This document shows, piece by piece, positions 24,332 through 34,027 of a stretch of 64,000 nucleotides of DNA. The stretch covers positions 1-64,000 of the forward strand of contig JAUSBR010000002.1 of NCBI GenBank assembly GCA_030651895.1, written 5' to 3'. The notes under the pieces were generated by a model. The model saw only the letters and a program-made list of their open reading frames with translations. It was not told the DNA's origin and ran no database searches. Each line of letters opens with the position of its first letter. Position 1 is the stretch's first letter. Origin of the DNA: Sideroxyarcus sp. (lineage in GTDB: Bacteria; Pseudomonadota; Gammaproteobacteria; Burkholderiales; Gallionellaceae). A program made the position numbers and the translations under genes.

Positions 24332-25465
24332 ATGAAGTTATTTCTGAAACTGATCATCACCCTGTTCTCGACACTGGCATTCTCGCAAGAACCCCCAGCA
24401 CCTTCTTCCACCATCGCCGCCGATTCATACGCGCTGTATGATTACACCAGCGGCCAGTTCCTGGTCGAACAGAACGCGAACAAGCATATCCCTCCCGCGC
24501 ACCTGACCAAGCTGATGACAGCCTATGTCGTGTTCGGCGCGATCAAGCAGGGCAAACTGTCGCTCACCCAGCGTCTCACTCCTTCGGCCTATGCCACCCG
24601 CATCCAGAGCGAAGAGTCGCGCATGTTCCTGAGCACGGGCAAAGATGTGGCTGTGGAAGAATTGCTGCGCGGACTGATTGTGCAATCGGCCAACGATGCC
24701 GCGCGCGTGCTGGCCGAAGTGATCGCCAACCACGAGATGGCGCTGGCCGACACGATGAACAGCGAAGCACAACGCATGGGACTGAAGGACACCCACTTCG
24801 TCAACGCCACCGGCCTGCCCGATGCGCAGCACTACAGCAGCGCGCACGACCTGGCCCTGATCTCCGCCGCGCTGATCCGCGACTTCCCCGAGTTCTACTT
24901 CATCTTTGCGCAGCGCGAATACCAGTACAACAGCATCAACCAGTTTAACCGCAACCGCCTGCTGTGGCTGGACCCGTTCGTGGACGGACTGGCGACCGGC
25001 TATAGCGAGACCGACGATTTCTACCTGGCCGCTTCCGCCAAACGCGACGAACGCCGCCTGATCTCGGTGGTGATCGGCACCGACACCGAGAAACTGCGCA
25101 GCAGCGAAAGCCAGCGCCTGCTGAACTACGGCTTCCAGAATTTCGAAGCCATCAAACTCTATTCCAAGGACCAGCCCGTCAGCGACAAGCGTATCTGGAA
25201 GGGCACCGACAAGCACCTCAAGCTCGGCTTCCGCGCGGATCGATACATCACCATCCCCAAAGGCCAGCGCGCTGCACTCAAAGCGACACTGGAGACCCGG
25301 CAGCCCATCCTCGCGCCGGTCAACCGCGGCCAGCAGATTGGCACACTGCACCTGACCCTTGGCGATGCCCCCTATCTCGACCTGCCTGTCGTGGCACTGG
25401 ACGATGTGCGTCTGGCGAATGTATTCTCCCGAGGAGTGGATAACATCCGATTGCTGTTCCAATAA
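24332..25465 (+). CDS. DacA/DacC-family D,D-carboxypeptidase homologue, predicted catalytically inactive
   Basis: The 377-residue protein has a short signal peptide (ending FSTLAFSQ), a peptidase S11 domain (about residues 28-265) and the PBP5 C-terminal beta domain (about 270-365). Overall conservation is good, but motif 1 SxxK reads HLTK (His57 for the nucleophilic Ser; codon CAC at 24500-24502). Motif 3 KTG reads ATG (Ala221). Motif 2 SxN is kept (S119-A-N121). Loss of the nucleophile and the KTG Lys predicts no acyl-enzyme chemistry, so a peptidoglycan-binding or regulatory role is possible. It is followed 10 bp later by dat, as in the usual dacC-dat-ybeD-lipB operon. Confidence 0.9.
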   Translation: MKLFLKLIITLFSTLAFSQEPPAPSSTIAADSYALYDYTSGQFLVEQNANKHIPPAHLTKLMTAYVVFGAIKQGKLSLTQRLTPSAYATRIQSEESRMFLSTGKDVAVEELLRGLIVQSANDAARVLAEVIANHEMALADTMNSEAQRMGLKDTHFVNATGLPDAQHYSSAHDLALISAALIRDFPEFYFIFAQREYQYNSINQFNRNRLLWLDPFVDGLATGYSETDDFYLAASAKRDERRLISVVIGTDTEKLRSSESQRLLNYGFQNFEAIKLYSKDQPVSDKRIWKGTDKHLKLGFRADRYITIPKGQRAALKATLETRQPILAPVNRGQQIGTLHLTLGDAPYLDLPVVALDDVRLANVFSRGVDNIRLLFQ

Positions 25466-25475
25466 GGAGCAACAC

Positions 25476-26330
25476 ATGACTGTGTATCTGAACGGCCGAT
25501 TCATGCCGATCGAAGAAGCTAGCGTCCCCGTGCTGGATCGCGGTTTCATCTTCGGCGACGGCGTCTACGAAGTCATCCCCGTCTACTCGCGCCGCGCCTT
25601 CCGCATGTCGGAACACCTCAAGCGCCTGCAACACAGTCTCGACGGCATCAAGTTGCCGAACCCGCACAGCGAGAGTGAGTGGACCGGCATCCTCAACGAG
25701 CTCATCAGGCGCAACTCGCCCGAAGACCAATACCTTTACCTGCACATCACGCGCGGCGTCGCCAAGCGCGACCATGCTTTTCCCAATCCGCCCGTGCCGC
25801 CTACCGTGTTCGTGCTGAGCAACCCGCTCACCACACCGCCGGCCGAATTGCTCGCCAGCGGCATCGCCTGTATCACCGTCGTCGACAACCGCTGGTTGCG
25901 CTGCGACATCAAGGCCATCGCGCTGTTGCCAAACGTGCTGCTGCGCCAGGCCGCGGTCGAAGCCGGCTGCGCCGAAGCCATCCTCATCCGCGACGACTCA
26001 TTCCTCACTGAAGGCGCGGCCAGCAACATCTTCGCGGTGAAGAACGGCACGTTGCTCGCACCGCCCAAAGATAACCTGATGCTGCCCGGCATCACCTACG
26101 ACGTCATCCTCGAACTCGCTGCCGCGAACAACATCCCGCATGAAGTGCGCAAGGTGAGCAAGGCGGAAGTGTTCAATGCCGACGAACTGTTGCTCAGCTC
26201 CAGCACCAAGGAAGTGCTCGCCATCACCACGCTGGATGGCAAACCGGTAGGCAATGGAAAGCCCGGCGCGATGTTTGCCCGGCTGCATACGCTCTATCAG
26301 GATTTCAAACGGGACGTGATGCGCAAATGA
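25476..26330 (+). CDS. dat: D-amino acid aminotransferase (class IV PLP fold)
   Basis: The 284-residue protein is a fold-type IV PLP enzyme, with the start MTVYLNGRFMPIEEASVPVLDRG. The catalytic Lys is in RCDIKAIALLPNVL, EGAASNIFAV sits near the cofactor phosphate, and LPGITYDVI follows. By family and by its place between dacC and lipB it is the D-alanine/D-glutamate transaminase; branched-chain transaminase activity cannot be excluded. ATG 25476 follows AAGGAGC. The stop overlaps the next start (ATGA). Confidence 0.88.
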   Translation: MTVYLNGRFMPIEEASVPVLDRGFIFGDGVYEVIPVYSRRAFRMSEHLKRLQHSLDGIKLPNPHSESEWTGILNELIRRNSPEDQYLYLHITRGVAKRDHAFPNPPVPPTVFVLSNPLTTPPAELLASGIACITVVDNRWLRCDIKAIALLPNVLLRQAAVEAGCAEAILIRDDSFLTEGAASNIFAVKNGTLLAPPKDNLMLPGITYDVILELAAANNIPHEVRKVSKAEVFNADELLLSSSTKEVLAITTLDGKPVGNGKPGAMFARLHTLYQDFKRDVMRK

Positions 26331-26596
26331 TCGACCCCAAAGACTCCCTCATCGAATACCCCAGCGACTTCCCGATCAAAGTGTTCGGCGAAGCCAAGCC
26401 GGGTTTCGCGCAAGCTGTCGCCATCGTCGTGCAAGGGCATGCGCCGGACTTCGACGCGACCAGTATCGAGACGCGCAGCAGCACCGGCGCAAAATACATC
26501 AGCCTCACCTGCACCATCCGCGCCACCTCGCGCGAACAGCTCGACAATCTGTACCGCGACCTGACTTCCCACCCGATGGTCAAAATGGTGCTCTGA
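26327..26596 (+). CDS. ybeD: YbeD family (DUF493) protein
   Basis: The 89-residue protein has the YbeD/DUF493 ACT-like fold (LIEYPSDFPIKVFGEA, GKYISLTCTIRA-like segment, LYRDLTSHPMVKMVL). The family is found beside lipB in many Proteobacteria, with a suggested link to lipoate metabolism. It overlaps dat by ATGA and lies 5 bp before lipB. Confidence 0.92.
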   Translation: MIDPKDSLIEYPSDFPIKVFGEAKPGFAQAVAIVVQGHAPDFDATSIETRSSTGAKYISLTCTIRATSREQLDNLYRDLTSHPMVKMVL

Positions 26597-26601
26597 AGCC
26601 A

Positions 26602-27249
26602 ATGCAACATCCACCGATACACATCAAGGCACTGGGTATGGTCGACTACGAGCCGACCTGGCGCGCCATGCAGAAGTTCACCGCCGAGCGCACCGCCGAC
26701 ACCGTGGACGAGATCTGGCTGGTGCAGCACCCGCCCACCTACACGCAGGGTCAGGCTGGCAAGCCGGAACACCTGCTGCACCAGACCCATATCCCCGTCG
26801 TAAAGATCGACCGCGGCGGCCAGATCACCTTCCATGGCCCCGGCCAGATCGTCGCCTACCTGCTGCTCGACCTGCGCCGCTGGAAGATCAACGTGCGCGA
26901 ACTGGTGCGCCTGATGGAGCAGGCCGTCATCGATCTGCTCGCCGAATACGGCGTGAAAGCGGAAGGCCGCGAGGATGCGCCCGGCGTGTATGTCGGCGAT
27001 GCCAAGATCGCCGCACTGGGCCTGAAGATCAAGAATGGCTGCAGCTACCACGGCCTGTCGTTCAACGTCGACATGGATCTCTCCCCCTTCGACAACATCA
27101 ACCCCTGCGGCTATCAGGGCCTGCGCGTCACCCAGGCCATCGAGTTCGGCATCGCCGTGCCATGGGAAGAGCTGCAAGCGCAACTCACGCAGAACCTGGT
27201 GCATGGCATGCAAAAACATCTGGATAGAAAGCGGCAAGCCGAACAGTGA
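26602..27249 (+). CDS. lipB: Octanoyl-[ACP]:protein N-octanoyltransferase
   Basis: LipB moves octanoate from acyl carrier protein to lipoyl domains. The 215-residue protein has the family motifs DEIWLVQHPPTYTQGQAGK, DRGGQITFHGPGQIVAYLLLD, PGVYVGDAKIAALGLKI and the active-site region FNVDMDLSPFDNINPCGY, with the catalytic Cys in NPCG and Lys in AKIAALG. The usual partner lipA does not follow; two small orphan genes do. Confidence 0.96.
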   Translation: MQHPPIHIKALGMVDYEPTWRAMQKFTAERTADTVDEIWLVQHPPTYTQGQAGKPEHLLHQTHIPVVKIDRGGQITFHGPGQIVAYLLLDLRRWKINVRELVRLMEQAVIDLLAEYGVKAEGREDAPGVYVGDAKIAALGLKIKNGCSYHGLSFNVDMDLSPFDNINPCGYQGLRVTQAIEFGIAVPWEELQAQLTQNLVHGMQKHLDRKRQAEQ

Positions 27250-28148: not shown

Positions 28149-31100
28149 CTACTTCAACACCCCCTCCGAAAACACCAGCGCACACCTGACAGCCTTGCCT
28201 GCAAAGACAGATTGCATAGCCGTCTGATATTCCTGCATCTGTGTTTGATAACGCTCAGCATCCTCTGAATCGCCCAATTTGTAGTCCAGCACCCATACCT
28301 CGTCGTCGAACTCCACCAGACGGTCGATGCGCTTCAGCTCGCCCTTGGCATTGATGTAGGGCATCTCGTTGTATGCCGCCAAGTATTGCGTCGAATCAAA
28401 GAAGCGGGCGAGTTGCGGCAGGGTGAGCAGGTGTTGGGCTTGCTGCCAGAGCGAGGGCATTTCATCTGGGGGGATGGCAAGATGCTGCTGAAGACCAGCT
28501 TCATCTACGGTCCCTTCAGTAAGATTCTGCAGCAGCGCATGCAGCCAGATGCCGCGCTGTTGTTGAGCGGTGTTGCGGGCGGCGCGTTTGCCGGTGGGAA
28601 GAATGGTTGGCAAGGCAACCTCAGCACTACCGTCATTCCCGCGCAGGCGGGAATCCAGCAATTGAATATCACCGCGTAGCGGACTGCATAAAGGATTTGT
28701 CTCGCTACTCGAGGCTTGTTTGTCTATCTGGATTCCGGCCTGCGCCGGAATGACAGCTATGGCTGCCGCTATGCGGTCATACCACGATGGCGTTTTCTTC
28801 TTTTCTTCCCTGTCTTCACCCTTGCTGTTGCCGCTGACGATAAGCGCCTGCTGCGCGCGGGTCATGGCGACGTAGAGCAGGTTCATCTCTTCACGCGCCT
28901 GTTCGGCGGCATCCTGCTCGAACAGCGGCATGCGCTTCTTGCCGCGCGAGGTCTGGTCGGCGTAGAGCGAGAAATGCAGCGGTTGCGCTTCGTGCGTCGG
29001 CCAGTCGAGCAGCACGTCGTTGCCGTCGCGGTTCTTCTTTTCCGCGTTCGCGTCCAGCAGCCAAACGATGGGCGCTTCCAGTCCTTTCGATTCGTGAACG
29101 GTGTAGATACGCACCGCATCGCCCGCCGTGCCGAGTTTGCCCTCGTCCGGTGCGTCATCGCTGCTGTCGCGCAGTTCGCGCAACTCTTGCAGGAAGCGCG
29201 GCAGGCTGGGATAGCGACCGGCATCCACGCTCAGCGCGATCTCCATGAAGGCGTGCAGGTTGGCAGTGACCTTGGCGCGCATCTCGGGCGGCAGTACGGC
29301 ACTGTAGCGTGCGATCACATCGCCCTCGAAATAGATGCGGTCGAGCAGGTCGTGCACCGGGAGTTTGTCGGCAAGGGCGAGCCAACGTTGCAGCAACTCG
29401 GCGGCGCGTTGCTGCGCGGGGGATGGCGAAGGTAGATGCTGCAGGCGTTGCCACCAGGAAAGGCGAGTGCTGAGTGCTGAGTGCTGAGCCTCTACCCCCC
29501 TCTCGTCACCCGGTACTCCGCACTCGGCACTGGCTTGCGCCAGCTGCATCAGGTCTTCATCGCTGCAAGCGAACACCGGCGTGCGCAGCACCTGTGCCAG
29601 CGCCAGATCGGCGAAGGGGGTGATGAGGAACATCAGCAGCGCCTGAACATCTTCCGCCTCCAATGTATCGAGCAGGCCGCCGCGGCGCGAGCTGATGAAG
29701 GGGATATGCCTTGCGCGCAGGGCTTCTTCATAGATGGCGAGATGGGTGCGGGTGCGCACCAGCACCATGATGTCGCCGTAGCTGGCGCGGCGGGTTTCGC
29801 CCTCGTCGTTCACCGACCAATCGCGGGTGATGGTTTGCAGTTGTTCGGCGAACTGCTGCGCTTCAATGTGGCGTACGCCCTCGCCCGCCTCGGCTCGCGG
29901 CGTGGAAAGCGGGTTGCGCAAAGCCAAAGGCGCGTCTTCCGCTGCAGCTTCCTCCGAATGCTCCGCCTCCGCCAGCGGCAACACCAGCACGTGCCCCGGC
30001 AATTCCTTCTGGTGGGTCTGATGTTCAACGAACTCGAAGCCGTCCGGCTGCTCGCGGAACACGGCATTCACCGCATTGACCACGGCCTGCGAATTGCGGC
30101 GCGTGAGGCTGTTGCCCAGCGTCGCGGCGTTGAAATGTTTTTGCAGGTATTCGCGCGCCACGCCGAACAGGCGCGCATCGGCACGGCGGAAACGGTAGAT
30201 GGATTGTTTGGGGTCGCCGACGACGAACACGGTGGGTTGCGATTCCACCGCCACGGCCGCATCGAACCACGCGCGCAGGATCTGCCATTGCAGCGGGTTG
30301 GTGTCCTGGAACTCGTCCAGCAGCACATGGCGATAGCGGCTGTCGAGCTTGTATTGCATGGTCTCGGCGTGCTCGCTCTGTTGCAACAGTCGGCACAATT
30401 GCCATTCGAGGTCGGAGAAATCCATCTGCTGCTTCTGCGCCTTGAGTGCCTGATAGCGCTCAAGGAAGGCGACGCCGCAATGCAGCACGGCTTCGTTCAG
30501 ACGATAGACCTGCTGCTCGGCGAGAATGTCTCGCACCATTTGCAGGTTGGCATGCAACATGGCGAGTGCAGTGTTGAAGATACCCGCGTCCTGGTTCTTG
30601 GTCGGCTTGAGCTTGCGCGGCTCGTTCTTCTGCGTGAACAGCAGCGGCCATATCACATTGAAGCGCTCCCCGGGATCGGTATCCGTCCAGGCGCGCTCCA
30701 ACTCGGAGGCATTCGCCTTCTGTGCCTCGGTGCCCTTGTTGGCAAGATGGTGCATGAAGGCAAACAAAGACTCTTCGCTGATGCCGCACATACCCCAATC
30801 TTCGACGGGGTCGAACTCCAGATCGACGTCGAGATATTTGCGCAAATTATTCAGCGCGAACGGCATCACGTCTTTCTGCCCCTGGGTGTAGGCCCACCAC
30901 TCGGCGCGTTTGCCGAGGAAGTTGAACAGCAACTTGCGCGCGGTGAACAGGCCGCAATCCTCAAACAGCCATTGCATATGCCGTGCTTCGAGACTTTCCG
31001 GTTGCTTGCGCATCTGCTCCAGCAATTCCTCCCAGGCCTCTTCCTGCTCTGCTCCCGCCCGCTCCAGCAACGACATGCCCTGCATCACATCGGCATTCAA

Positions 31101-31481
31101 CGGCGCACGCTGCATGACCTGCATGAACCAGCCGTGGAAGGTACTGATGGTGATGCCGGGTTGTGCCAGCAGCACACTGCTGTAAAGATTGCGCGCACGT
31201 TCCACCTGCTCTTCGCTCAATCTCTCGATGCCGCGTTCGGCGAAGAACTGCTGCACCGAAGCTTCGTCACCCATCGCCACATCGCGCAGCCACTGCTGCA
31301 AACGCGCCTGCATTTCCTGCGCTGCCTTGCGCGTGAAGGTGATAGCAAGGATCTGCGAGGGCTGAGCCCCGTCCAGCAGCAGGCGCACGATGCGCGATAC
31401 CAGCAGCCAGGTCTTGCCGCTGCCGGCGCAGGCTTCGACAACGACGCTGTGTTTGGGGTCGAGGGCGATATGGTTGCTCAT
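28149..31481 (-). CDS. addA: AddA-type helicase-nuclease subunit
   Basis: The 1110-residue protein is a UvrD/RecB-like superfamily 1A helicase with Walker A ACAGSGKTWLLV, motif Ia AITFTRKAAQEM, motif II LLDEFQDTNPLQWQIL, motif III VGDPKQSIYRFRRAD and motifs V-VI (YTVHESKGLEAPIVWLLD; LLYVAMTRAQQALIV). A C-terminal PD-(D/E)XK nuclease has KRIDRLVEFDD and VLDYKLGD. With AddB it processes double-strand breaks for recombination. Two repeat-derived stretches are translated within it (about residues 649-674 and 910-951). ATG 31481 overlaps the addB stop (ATGA); an upstream extension was rejected. Confidence 0.93.
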   Translation of the reverse strand: MSNHIALDPKHSVVVEACAGSGKTWLLVSRIVRLLLDGAQPSQILAITFTRKAAQEMQARLQQWLRDVAMGDEASVQQFFAERGIERLSEEQVERARNLYSSVLLAQPGITISTFHGWFMQVMQRAPLNADVMQGMSLLERAGAEQEEAWEELLEQMRKQPESLEARHMQWLFEDCGLFTARKLLFNFLGKRAEWWAYTQGQKDVMPFALNNLRKYLDVDLEFDPVEDWGMCGISEESLFAFMHHLANKGTEAQKANASELERAWTDTDPGERFNVIWPLLFTQKNEPRKLKPTKNQDAGIFNTALAMLHANLQMVRDILAEQQVYRLNEAVLHCGVAFLERYQALKAQKQQMDFSDLEWQLCRLLQQSEHAETMQYKLDSRYRHVLLDEFQDTNPLQWQILRAWFDAAVAVESQPTVFVVGDPKQSIYRFRRADARLFGVAREYLQKHFNAATLGNSLTRRNSQAVVNAVNAVFREQPDGFEFVEHQTHQKELPGHVLVLPLAEAEHSEEAAAEDAPLALRNPLSTPRAEAGEGVRHIEAQQFAEQLQTITRDWSVNDEGETRRASYGDIMVLVRTRTHLAIYEEALRARHIPFISSRRGGLLDTLEAEDVQALLMFLITPFADLALAQVLRTPVFACSDEDLMQLAQASAECGVPGDERGVEAQHSALSTRLSWWQRLQHLPSPSPAQQRAAELLQRWLALADKLPVHDLLDRIYFEGDVIARYSAVLPPEMRAKVTANLHAFMEIALSVDAGRYPSLPRFLQELRELRDSSDDAPDEGKLGTAGDAVRIYTVHESKGLEAPIVWLLDANAEKKNRDGNDVLLDWPTHEAQPLHFSLYADQTSRGKKRMPLFEQDAAEQAREEMNLLYVAMTRAQQALIVSGNSKGEDREEKKKTPSWYDRIAAAIAVIPAQAGIQIDKQASSSETNPLCSPLRGDIQLLDSRLRGNDGSAEVALPTILPTGKRAARNTAQQQRGIWLHALLQNLTEGTVDEAGLQQHLAIPPDEMPSLWQQAQHLLTLPQLARFFDSTQYLAAYNEMPYINAKGELKRIDRLVEFDDEVWVLDYKLGDSEDAERYQTQMQEYQTAMQSVFAGKAVRCALVFSEGVLK
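28631..28755. repeat. Paired dRS3-like hairpin repeat inside addA
   Basis: Two inverted arms face each other 69 bp apart. Left, 28631-28658, is centred on ATTCCCGC-GCAG-GCGGGAAT; right, 28728-28755, is centred on ATTCCGGC-CTGC-GCCGGAAT. Each arm is itself a perfect 8-bp hairpin, with compensatory changes between arms. Outer bases GTCATTCC and GGAATCCAG are shared. This is the dispersed repeat type known as dRS3 in Neisseria and seen in many Proteobacteria. On the addA strand it is open and translated as IPAQAGIQ ... DSRLRGND. Confidence 0.88.
29465..29535. repeat. GAGTGCT tandem/inverted repeat inside addA
   Basis: GAGTGCT is repeated three times in tandem (29465-29485). About 25 bp further, the related CTCCGCACTCGGCACTGG (29517-29534) forms an approximate inverted partner. 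It is read through in addA as a short insertion around AQHSALSTRL. It looks like a low-complexity or repeat-derived insertion; no known element name can be given. Confidence 0.6.
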
Positions 31482-34027
31482 ACCCATTCTCCCTTGCGAC
31501 ACACTCCCCGAATCTCGCAGTGCATGCATGCCTGATCGATGCCGTTGGCGGGCAATCCCGCGCCGTCGCGGATGCGAGCCATCACCTGCACCAAACGTTC
31601 TGCATTGAGCTGTGCCAGCAACGGCACATCATCCTTGGGTGCGACCAGTTTCACTTTGCCGCTCTCGATGCTGAGGAAGGCGGCATCCGCGGCTTCATGC
31701 GCATAAGCGTAACAGGCGAGCTGCACGTCCTCGCCCGGCTCTTTCAATTTGTTGGATAACTTTTGCGCATCCAGTGTCTTGTAATCCAGCACCAGCTTCT
31801 CGTCGCCGCGCACATCCAGCCGGTCGATACGTCCGCGCAGACGGATGCCTTCCAGTTGCCAGTCGAACGCACTCTCGGACTCGGCATAGCGCCACCCCTC
31901 AGCCTCGCTCTCGGTCTGCCATTCCAGATAGGCAGGCAAGGATTTGTACCAGCGCGCCAACCAGGCCCGCGCCGCGAAATCCTGCACCAGCAGGTCGGCG
32001 AACACTTCCTCGCTGATACGACGCAAGGCGGCTTCCATCTCCGCCATGTCGCGCCCACTCACCTGCGGAAACTGTTCGTGGAAGCGTTGCAGGATGCCGT
32101 GCACACGCTCGCCGTAATCGCGCTTCTCGATAGTCTCCTGCACTTCGTCGAGTTCGTTCAGACGCAGGATATGGCGCGCATAGAACTGGTAGGGACAGGC
32201 GACCAGCGAGTTATAGCCGCTGATGGAGATGCGTTCAGGAACCGCCTCGCTCGCCGCAGTCGGTGCAGGCTGCACCGACTGCGGCAGCCCCACCTGATGC
32301 GCCTCTTCCGCCGCAAGCACGCCATGCAGCTCACGTTCGGCCAGGTCATTGCCATGCGCCTGCTCATATTCATCGCGCACTATCTGCAGGAACGGACTCA
32401 ACAACCGCGCTTCGCCGTCCTTGTCCTTCTGCCAGGTGACCAGCACGGCATCGTTCATCGCCAACAGCGCCAGCAGATCATGTCTCTGGCGCGTCGCATG
32501 GGTGCTGCGCGTGGGCAGATTCAATGCCGAGCGCACCGCATCGTTGAACCAGCGCCCGCCGTCTGCCGCGCCGGGCAGATGGTCGGCACCGCAGCCGAGC
32601 AGCAGCACCGCATCGAAAGCGCGCCAGCGCGTTGCCGCCAGATGGGTGAAGCGCACGGGACTGTCGATGCTGCTGTCGCGAAAAGTCTCGGTGTCCAGTT
32701 GCTGCGCCAGCCAGCGCCGCCATTCGGCGTAACGGTAGCGGCCCTCGTCGCCGTGCAGTTCCTGCCTCCAGGTCTCGAGCGCGCGCAGCAGTTGCTGGCC
32801 CGCCTCATCCTGCTGCAACCCGGTGTCCACACTCAATATATTCAGGCTCTGCTGCAATGCGGCCAGCCACTCGGCCAAAGTCTTCTTCTTGTTCTGTTCC
32901 AGCAATGCCGCCGCCTGACGCAGGCGCGCCAGCGGTTGGTGTAACGCGACTTCATGTTCGGCAAGCGCCAGGAATTTCTCCAGCCCGGAGACCACGCCCT
33001 GTTTGCGCAGCAGTTGTTCGAGTTGATACACCGCCGACTTGCGCTCACCCGCCGTCATGTCCGCAAAGATGAACGGCGACTTGAGCAGGTCGAGCAGGTC
33101 GTGGTGATAGAAGTCGCTTTGCAGCGCGGTGAGCCAGCGGTCGAGCACGGTGCTCACCGACATGGTGGCGAAGGTCCAGCCGGTTTCGTCCGCCACCAGC
33201 ACTTCTGCTCGTTCCAGCAAAGCTCGCGTGCGCCGTGCCACCACGCGGTCCTGCGCCACGATAGCAATGTCGCGTTTGCCTGCAGCCAGCCAACGACGCA
33301 CTTGCATGGCGGCGGCGCGGGCCTCTTGCTCCAGCGAGATGGCGGCGAAGAATAGCGGTGCAGATAGTTTTGCTTCCATCTCGCGCAAATCGAACACCTT
33401 CACCGCTGCGTGTTGTTCATATTCATCGAGAAAACGTTGCTCGACCGCATCCCATTCCGATGCGCGCAGCACATATAAAGGACAAACCGCACCGTCCGCC
33501 AGTTTCGCCAACCGTTGCTGGTAAGCGCGCGCCGCATCCAGTTCCGCACCGACCTGCATGGCACGCCACAACTCGAACACGAGGCGCGCCTCAAGTTGCA
33601 ACGTCGTGTTCTGCCTTGCCTGCCAGGCTTGTTGCACGGCGGCAGCAAACGAATCGGCATCGCCCGGCAGCTCGCTCAGTGAGTGGGTAAGTTCGTCGAA
33701 CAGCTTGAGCAGTTCCTGCGTCATACTCCACAGGTCGGCATTCTCGAACCACTGCAACTTGCGCAATTGCTGGTACAGCAGGGCGCTGCGCTGGCTATCG
33801 GTGGCGACCGCCGCTTGCAACGGAACGCTTTGCGCCCAATCGTTCAGCGTCACCATCTGCGGAAGAAGCAGCGCCGGACGTTGCGCGGCGCGCAGCAACG
33901 CCTGTGCCAGCGACTGGGCAACATGCATATTGGGCAGGAGAACGGTGATGCCGCGCAGGTCGGGCGCGGGATGGGCGGCGAGGATACGCTGCGCGATCCG
34001 GTCGAATTGAAGGGTTGCCGGACTCAC
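31478..34027 (-). CDS. addB: AddB-type nuclease subunit with Fe-S staple
   Basis: The 849-residue protein starts at GTG 34027, overlapping the fdxA stop (GTGA). The N-terminal half is an inactivated helicase-like region ([20 protein letters not shown]; no Walker A Lys). The C-terminal nuclease has [20 protein letters not shown]. One Cys ([12 protein letters not shown], about residue 618) plus C-x2-C-x5-C at the end ([13 protein letters not shown]) reproduce the iron-sulfur staple of AddB-type nucleases. It partners AddA, whose gene overlaps by 4 nt. An extension upstream of the GTG inside fdxA was rejected. Confidence 0.92.

Follow-up and report, generated by a model that had tools for sequence, protein, structure and literature searches.

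The gene at positions 24332-25465 (+) of the window, by which we mean the whole stretch of 64,000 nucleotides from Sideroxyarcus sp. analysed here, probably codes for a pseudoenzyme that derives from a D,D-carboxypeptidase of the PBP5 type and is maintained by selection throughout the genus. The nucleophile and the lysine of the KTG motif are gone from the protein, its domains and predicted fold persist, the loss of KTG is genus-wide, and selection on the gene is not visibly relaxed. We refer to the protein as pseudo-DacC and to the gene as dacC.

A PBP5-type protein without nucleophile and KTG lysine

Pseudo-DacC is a protein of 377 aa, read from an ATG start in an open frame. Its N-terminus (residues 1-22, 24332-24397) looks by eye like a signal peptide, with a model helix at 3-14 and low pLDDT at 1-7 and 10-21. 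There follow the S11 (transpeptidase-like) domain at residues 24-251 (24401-25084; Pfam PF00768, 219.7 bits) and the PBP5_C C-terminal beta domain at residues 271-359 (25142-25408; Pfam PF07943, 71.6 bits), which is the PBP5-type architecture. Among PDB entries, the best sequence match is to P. aeruginosa PBP5 (4k91), aligned over query residues 22-359 with an E value of 6.5e-89, and the full-length homology to PBP5-type enzymes claimed in a sequence-only reading of this DNA is thereby borne out. The 4k91 alignment places His57 on the serine of SxxK and Ala221 on the lysine of KTG. The former SxxK motif is H57-L-T-K60 (24500-24511) within ...PPAHLTKLMTAY..., where codon 57 is CAC at 24500-24502 and the SxxK lysine is present as Lys60. 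The former KTG motif is A221-T-G223 (24992-25000) within ...VDGLATGYS..., where codon 221 is GCG at 24992-24994. The SxN motif is kept as S119-A-N121 (24686-24694) within ...VQSANDAA.... All three motifs had been named in that reading, and they were found again on rereading the translation. No KTG or KSG occurs anywhere in the 377 aa, and the sole SxxK string, S101-T-G-K104, lies away from the SxxK site.

The AlphaFold2 model of pseudo-DacC, built on 35 aligned sequences, has a mean pLDDT of 86.1 and a pTM of 0.81. The predicted fold matches PBP5/PBP6 structures; against E. coli PBP5 (1nzo), Foldseek gives a TM score of 0.87 by query and 0.93 by target. The model is less sure in the KTG region, with block means of 82 (201-210) and 79 (211-220 and 221-230), compared with 92-95 at 231-250. 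The C-terminal stretch with the helix 366-375 (25427-25456), a candidate peripheral membrane anchor, is modelled at low confidence (block means of 60 and 49). For residues 366-376 the hydrophobic moment is 0.56, above 310 of the 338 other 11-mers of the protein. Pseudo-DacC is thus like E. coli PBP5 (DacA) and P. aeruginosa PBP5 in its two-domain full-length homology, predicted fold, SxN, SxxK lysine and modelled C-terminal helix, and differs from them in having His57 for the serine and Ala221 for the KTG lysine. It also stays far below the NCBIfam cut-offs for DacA (278.5 of 694 bits), DacD (271.5 of 610) and PRK10001 (267.5 of 765). If the established mechanism applies, a protein without Ser57 would form no acyl-enzyme; the trimming of pentapeptides and the covalent binding of penicillin would then both be lost.

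Downstream on the same strand lie a dat-like aminotransferase class IV gene (25476-26330, Pfam PF01063), a ybeD-like DUF493 gene (26327-26596, PF04359) and a lipB-like octanoyltransferase gene of the LplA/B_cat type (26602-27249, PF21948), as the sequence-only reading had said. The dat neighbour recurs in relatives. In 39 of the 41 loci of the window's genus it follows on the same strand at a distance of no more than 150 bp, and among 154 other loci 150 have it within 326 bp, the remaining two and four loci coming without flank; these counts include named duplicates, and the 154-locus set holds three fragments from the window's genus (L198-L200) and the outgroup. Between 24050 and 25560, a promoter scan gave no sigma-70-like site, and there are two terminator-like sites where 0.9 were expected. 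Farther along the window, VIPAQAGIQ...DSRLRGND is read at 28632-28754 inside a long minus-strand helicase-like ORF (28149-31529); it resembles an interspersed repeat, inserted in frame and translated.

Loss of catalytic residues across genus and family

How widely is the loss shared? In the window's genus (g1, 34 genomes searched), the KTG lysine is absent at all 30 readable sites, replaced by Gln in 17, Ala in 12 and Ser in 1, and the site occurs as ATG, AAA, AAG, AAS, STS, QTA, QTS and QAA. Four genomes give no reading: the two pieces of the gene in G011 omit the site, and G021, G030 and G031 have no ortholog match. The SxxK serine is lost in 13 of 30 readable genomes (His 7, Gln 4, Ala 2), namely 29 of the 30 loci together with L198 of G011. 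As for the check on close relatives proposed in the sequence-only reading, the loss is conserved at every readable site for the KTG lysine and in these 13 genomes for the serine. The other motif residues are retained, K60 in 29 of 30 rows, S119 in 30 and N121 in 29. The DacC proteins of G001 and G022 are identical. Nearly all motif residues are lost in L032 (G005, 53% complete), which reads ALTQ/SAR/QTA. The codons at site 57 agree with the earlier remark that Ser-to-His takes at least two base changes, since relatives in g1 that keep the serine use TCN and the window's sub-clade uses CAC, CAA or CAG.

Outside g1, both residues are kept in 108 of 116 family tree rows. Among the other eight, L192 (G146) and L194 (G138) have both residues changed, with ALTK and EVG/EIG, and single losses are seen in L193 (G035), L087 (G125), L117 (G139), L091 (G042), L149 (G097) and L155 (G118). 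Eight further rows keep Ser and Lys with some other motif change (KTS in L089; SGS/SAS, SLSK or KSG in seven). KTG is intact in L048, which coincides with G155 of genus g14. S57 and K221 are invariant in all 107 'intact' family rows, a set with exclusions fixed beforehand that leaves out nine odd rows (the eight with losses and L089) and four outgroup rows and still includes seven rows with SGS/SAS for SxN. In the wider order, the exact pattern PA[H/Q]LTKLMTAY was matched in 2 of 399 genomes, both in g1. Note that a Ser-type control pattern matched 229 of the 399, so that such a search sees little more than half of these genes, and it is blind to KTG loss; pseudo-DacC may occur elsewhere in the order beyond the family.

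A protein tree of 150 rows was built with the motif columns removed; it is a quick tree with SH-aLRT support only. Named-record duplicates, frames below 300 aa, paralogues and split genes (L016/L042/L200, L198, L199) were left out. The duplicates at the same coordinates are L038/L039 with G025/G024, L047 with G012 and L034 with G013. The 13 of 158 family genomes without a row are G006, G011, G021, G030, G031, G053, G067, G068, G121, G124, G126, G134 and G151. On this tree, g1 and L079 form one clade of 30 rows (SH-aLRT 98), which adjoins eight g13/g9 rows, seven of them intact, and is made of two sub-clades of 13 rows (the window's) and 17 rows (SH-aLRT 99 each). L079 comes from the g6 genome G109, where it reads HLTK/ATG beside an intact copy, L112; with its place inside the g1 clade, it is likely to be contamination (5% in the table).

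Is there any order in the losses? At the KTG lysine site, all 17 rows of the other sub-clade have Gln, and the window's sub-clade has Ala in 12 rows and Ser in 1. At site 57, the window's sub-clade (13 rows including L079) has His in 8, Gln in 4 and Ser in 1, and the other has Ser in 15 and Ala in 2. Because KTG loss spans both sub-clades, the loss of the serine, found mainly in the window's sub-clade, was probably added on top of it. The two independent losses of the sequence-only reading are thus both real, with the correction that they appear stepwise, the KTG loss genus-wide and the serine loss mainly in one sub-clade. Over the whole tree, the minimum number of changes, counted irrespective of direction, is 5 for Lys, 6 for Ser and 7 for either.

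Selection on dacC after the loss

The dN/dS check proposed in the sequence-only reading was carried out with GY codon models fitted inside each group, as one-ratio fits without intervals. Omega is 0.115 in the window's sub-clade (12 sequences; L015 dropped as duplicate) and 0.116 in the other, here called the QTA sub-clade (16 of 17 sequences), with total codon tree lengths of 5.1 and 10.8. The intact groups give 0.100 (g13, n=7), 0.143 (Nitrotoga-type, n=13) and 0.126 (a subset of the genus Gallionella picked by hand, n=13). All these values are far from 1, and no rate relaxation on dacC after the loss was found in the g1 sub-clades as compared with the three intact groups. After the loss, dacC is under purifying selection like that in intact clades. 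For the neighbouring dat, omega is 0.070, 0.079 and 0.088 (from 12 of 12, 15 of 16 and 6 of 7 sequences); dat is thus under tighter constraint than dacC, whether the DacC of the clade is dead or intact.

Where does this selection act? There are 107 sites at least 95% conserved in the 107 intact rows, and nine of them are lost in g1. Three of the nine are among the six catalytic-motif residues that the 107 sites include (hypergeometric P 0.0074, a post hoc value as motif loss was the starting point), and two others, 229 and 231, sit just beyond KTG. In the window's sub-clade, mean entropy is 0.43 for S11, 0.60 for PBP5_C and 0.12 for the C-terminal tail, the lowest of four regions. Since S11 is not above PBP5_C in entropy, the old catalytic domain is still constrained. 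The old catalytic domain and the tail are therefore held by selection, and it is mainly the catalytic sites that are spared from it. Only A120 and R209 are fixed in g1 as against its sister clade, and T89, L138, K254, K286, D358 and N371 in the window's sub-clade alone; so short a list gives hardly any hint of a new binding site having been built.

Other DD-peptidases of the genome

A second, canonical dac gene had been suggested as something to look for. The window's genome (G000, a draft of 2.13 Mb, 73% complete) holds three other DD-peptidases, all with SxxK, SxN and KTG: an S11 paralogue of 266 aa (L201/L208, G000:C5:25331-26128, minus strand), a PbpG-type S11 protein that exceeds the NCBIfam PRK11669 cut-off, and an S13 DacB. 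Neither of the two S11 proteins has PBP5_C, and pseudo-DacC is the only S11 protein with this domain seen in the 73% complete draft. The short S11 paralogue is patchy in the family, being present in 55 of 158 genomes (E <1e-80) and needing 27 or more changes on the DacC tree, which suggests frequent loss or transfer. In g1 it is present in 24 of 34 genomes including the window's, it is split in G008, and its motifs are intact in the five g1 genomes where they were read. A VanY-type metallo-carboxypeptidase as replacement was found in none of eight genomes searched, with a control that was positive in 3 of 14 known genomes.

Alternative explanations

Could the gene simply be decaying? A redundant copy may erode slowly and neutrally, its frame being left open by chance or by its place at the head of the operon, which we regard as quite improbable. 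What speaks for such erosion is the closest relative, G006 (98-99% identical), where the gene (L016/L042/L200, G006:C14:19861-20981) is split over two frames near residue 103; the split may be a real disruption or a draft-genome error. L032 with its nearly erased motifs, and the 8 of 116 family rows outside g1 that have also lost Ser or the KTG lysine, point the same way. However, an omega of 0.115-0.116 has been maintained over both of the tree lengths given above, and K60, S119 and N121 are each missing from one of 30 rows at most. Stops or frameshifts in close relatives had been named as signs of decay. The split frames of G006 are the one such case, and no stop was found inside the matches listed for the 31 g1 genomes that carry an ortholog, two of which (G011 and G029) have it split over contigs. 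The three g1 genomes without an ortholog match, G021, G030 and G031 (62-89% complete), are probably assembly gaps, because the dat-ybeD-lipB stretch is also without a DNA match in G030 (40 of 107 candidates scored) and G031 and is held in part by G021. Simple decay is unlikely, and the claim of a retained pseudoenzyme is supported by a loss common to g1, by the omegas and by the kept operon. The least probable account, with practically no chance of being right, is a sequencing or assembly error. The window does come from an incomplete draft; this explanation was rejected because comparable losses recur in independent genomes of close relatives, three of them single-contig (G001, G002 and G032), and the earlier view that a single sequencing error is unlikely is upheld.

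The protein might instead still be an enzyme, by rearranged chemistry (e.g. with K60 and S119), as a divergent active hydrolase, or with weak activity in the SLTK/QTA sub-clade. The nearly fixed K60, S119 and N121, the serine 57 present in 15 of 17 QTA sub-clade rows, and the replacement at 57 in the window's sub-clade, which in each of the 12 changed rows is either His or Gln and so not random, would fit such activity. We hold it to be improbable, as the window protein is without both nucleophile and KTG lysine, the three kept residues may be retained for structure, and mutants with this serine changed to Gly or Ala, in E. coli PBP5 and PBP6b and in A. baumannii PBP5/6a, are described as inactive in excerpts of the reports cited below. 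A further scenario is that the short S11 paralogue took over the carboxypeptidase work and freed DacC, leaving it a relic. The paralogue is frequent in g1, with motifs intact where read, and the raw counts tilt to this side: it accompanies 23 of the 38 family rows with lost Ser or Lys versus 28 of 108 others, and 16 of 26 versus 23 of 71 in a more complete subset (97 rows, listed by hand from completeness values). Yet in G001 and G032, both single-contig genomes, DacC is dead and the short paralogue is absent, and ten g12 (Nitrotoga-type) genomes carry the paralogue beside an intact DacC. A tree-aware pairs test gave 0.2 for and 1.4 against of 4 pairs, a number that cannot reach significance. 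A relic would not be expected to stay under undiminished purifying selection either, as DacC does. The scenario as a whole is very improbable, though one of the other DD-peptidases may have permitted the loss. We thus keep to a maintained pseudoenzyme.

Possible role of pseudo-DacC

If pseudo-DacC is a maintained pseudoenzyme, what might it do? Its role would most probably be that of a factor without hydrolytic activity, associated with peptidoglycan or with its synthases. One possibility, offered tentatively, is that it still sits on the periplasmic face of the inner membrane and serves there, where peptidoglycan is being made, as a partner or placeholder that does not hydrolyse. As a placeholder it would limit the access of the remaining DD-peptidases (DacB, PbpG and the short S11 protein), and thereby could influence the pentapeptide level and cell shape. 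In canonical enzymes, KTG belongs to the substrate-carboxylate site, and its loss argues against a shield that binds D-Ala-D-Ala. As KTG loss should weaken the binding of the terminal carboxylate, the guard role is weakened, and a role as protein partner is about as likely as that of a guard.

The behaviour of PBP6a and of inactive PBP5, PBP6b and PBP4 makes a non-hydrolysing partner or guard plausible by analogy. According to excerpts of PMC4916385, E. coli PBP6a (DacC), a PBP5-family protein like pseudo-DacC, shows little or no cellular carboxypeptidase activity; nearly inactive, it accompanies more pentapeptides and seems to protect them. PBP6 differs from the window protein in that it is ampicillin-acylated in structure 3ita, by its title, and hence keeps a working serine, which pseudo-DacC is without. 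The same excerpts report that inactive PBP5(S44G) and PBP6b(S63A) worsen misshapen mutant cells, and that inactive PBP6a(S66A) has no shape effect. For E. coli PBP5(S44G), the available part of PMC2909392 describes no penicillin binding or activity, no restoration of shape, and a loss of septal localisation from which its authors infer lost substrate interaction; the last point counts against a shielding role. A. baumannii PBP5/6a S121A is likewise given as inactive (excerpts of PMC13059705). These mutants belong to the same family and have the nucleophile gone, as in pseudo-DacC. They are, however, engineered and have one loss each, and the two from E. coli do not restore shape in the texts just cited, whereas the loss in the window is natural, doubled with that of KTG, and maintained under selection. 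Inactive PBP4 still reaches midcell, for which its non-catalytic domain 3 is required (PMC9166362, in part). A parallel outside the family is given by DipM-like dead LytM factors, which in excerpts of PMC10336132 keep a degenerate peptidoglycan-hydrolase domain as regulator, as may be the case here; DipM differs in belonging to another protein family and in having known partners. Inactive homologues have been counted among serine proteases as well, with 42 putative cases among 966 in five families, the DD-peptidase family there being S12 (excerpts of PMC2605481). Among the open PMC papers listed by our searches, at the level of titles and abstract beginnings, we found no described pseudo-DacC, dead PBP5 homologue, or account of this gene in Gallionella.

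What does this imply for PBP5-type proteins? Homology is the sole ground on which they are called enzymes, and for the iron-oxidising bacteria of g1 such labels may claim more carboxypeptidase activity than there is. In E. coli, the shape function of PBP5-type carboxypeptidases needs activity, as far as excerpts of PMC2909392 and PMC4916385 go. A natural clade in which such a protein has lost nucleophile and KTG under undiminished selection says that the PBP5 fold has a non-catalytic job worth keeping. What is more, a natural series is available, from intact proteins through those with KTG lost to those that have lost Ser as well. Some of its members probably occur in iron oxidisers that have been cultured, and the series could separate the catalytic from the non-catalytic role.

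A bolder idea, rather unlikely as a whole, is that the main PBP5 of this Sideroxydans-like genus lost its catalysis stepwise and became a peptidoglycan factor for cell shape, by guarding pentapeptides or by organising synthases. The thin helical form of the cells would then be owed in part to this conversion, with related lineages repeatedly starting on the same path. According to the available part of PMC3770913, cells of Sideroxydans ES-1 are thin helical rods (0.32 um) and those of Gallionella ES-2 curved rods (0.73 um). The DacC of G002, putatively ES-1, reads QLTK/ATG, and that of G050, putatively ES-2, reads SLTK/KTG, so that a dead DacC goes with the thin helical shape in this one pair, which is suggestive. 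As a separate observation on the same two strains, both reportedly stain Gram-positive and yet show Gram-negative-looking walls by TEM (PMC3770913, in part), an unexplained wall property in the family.
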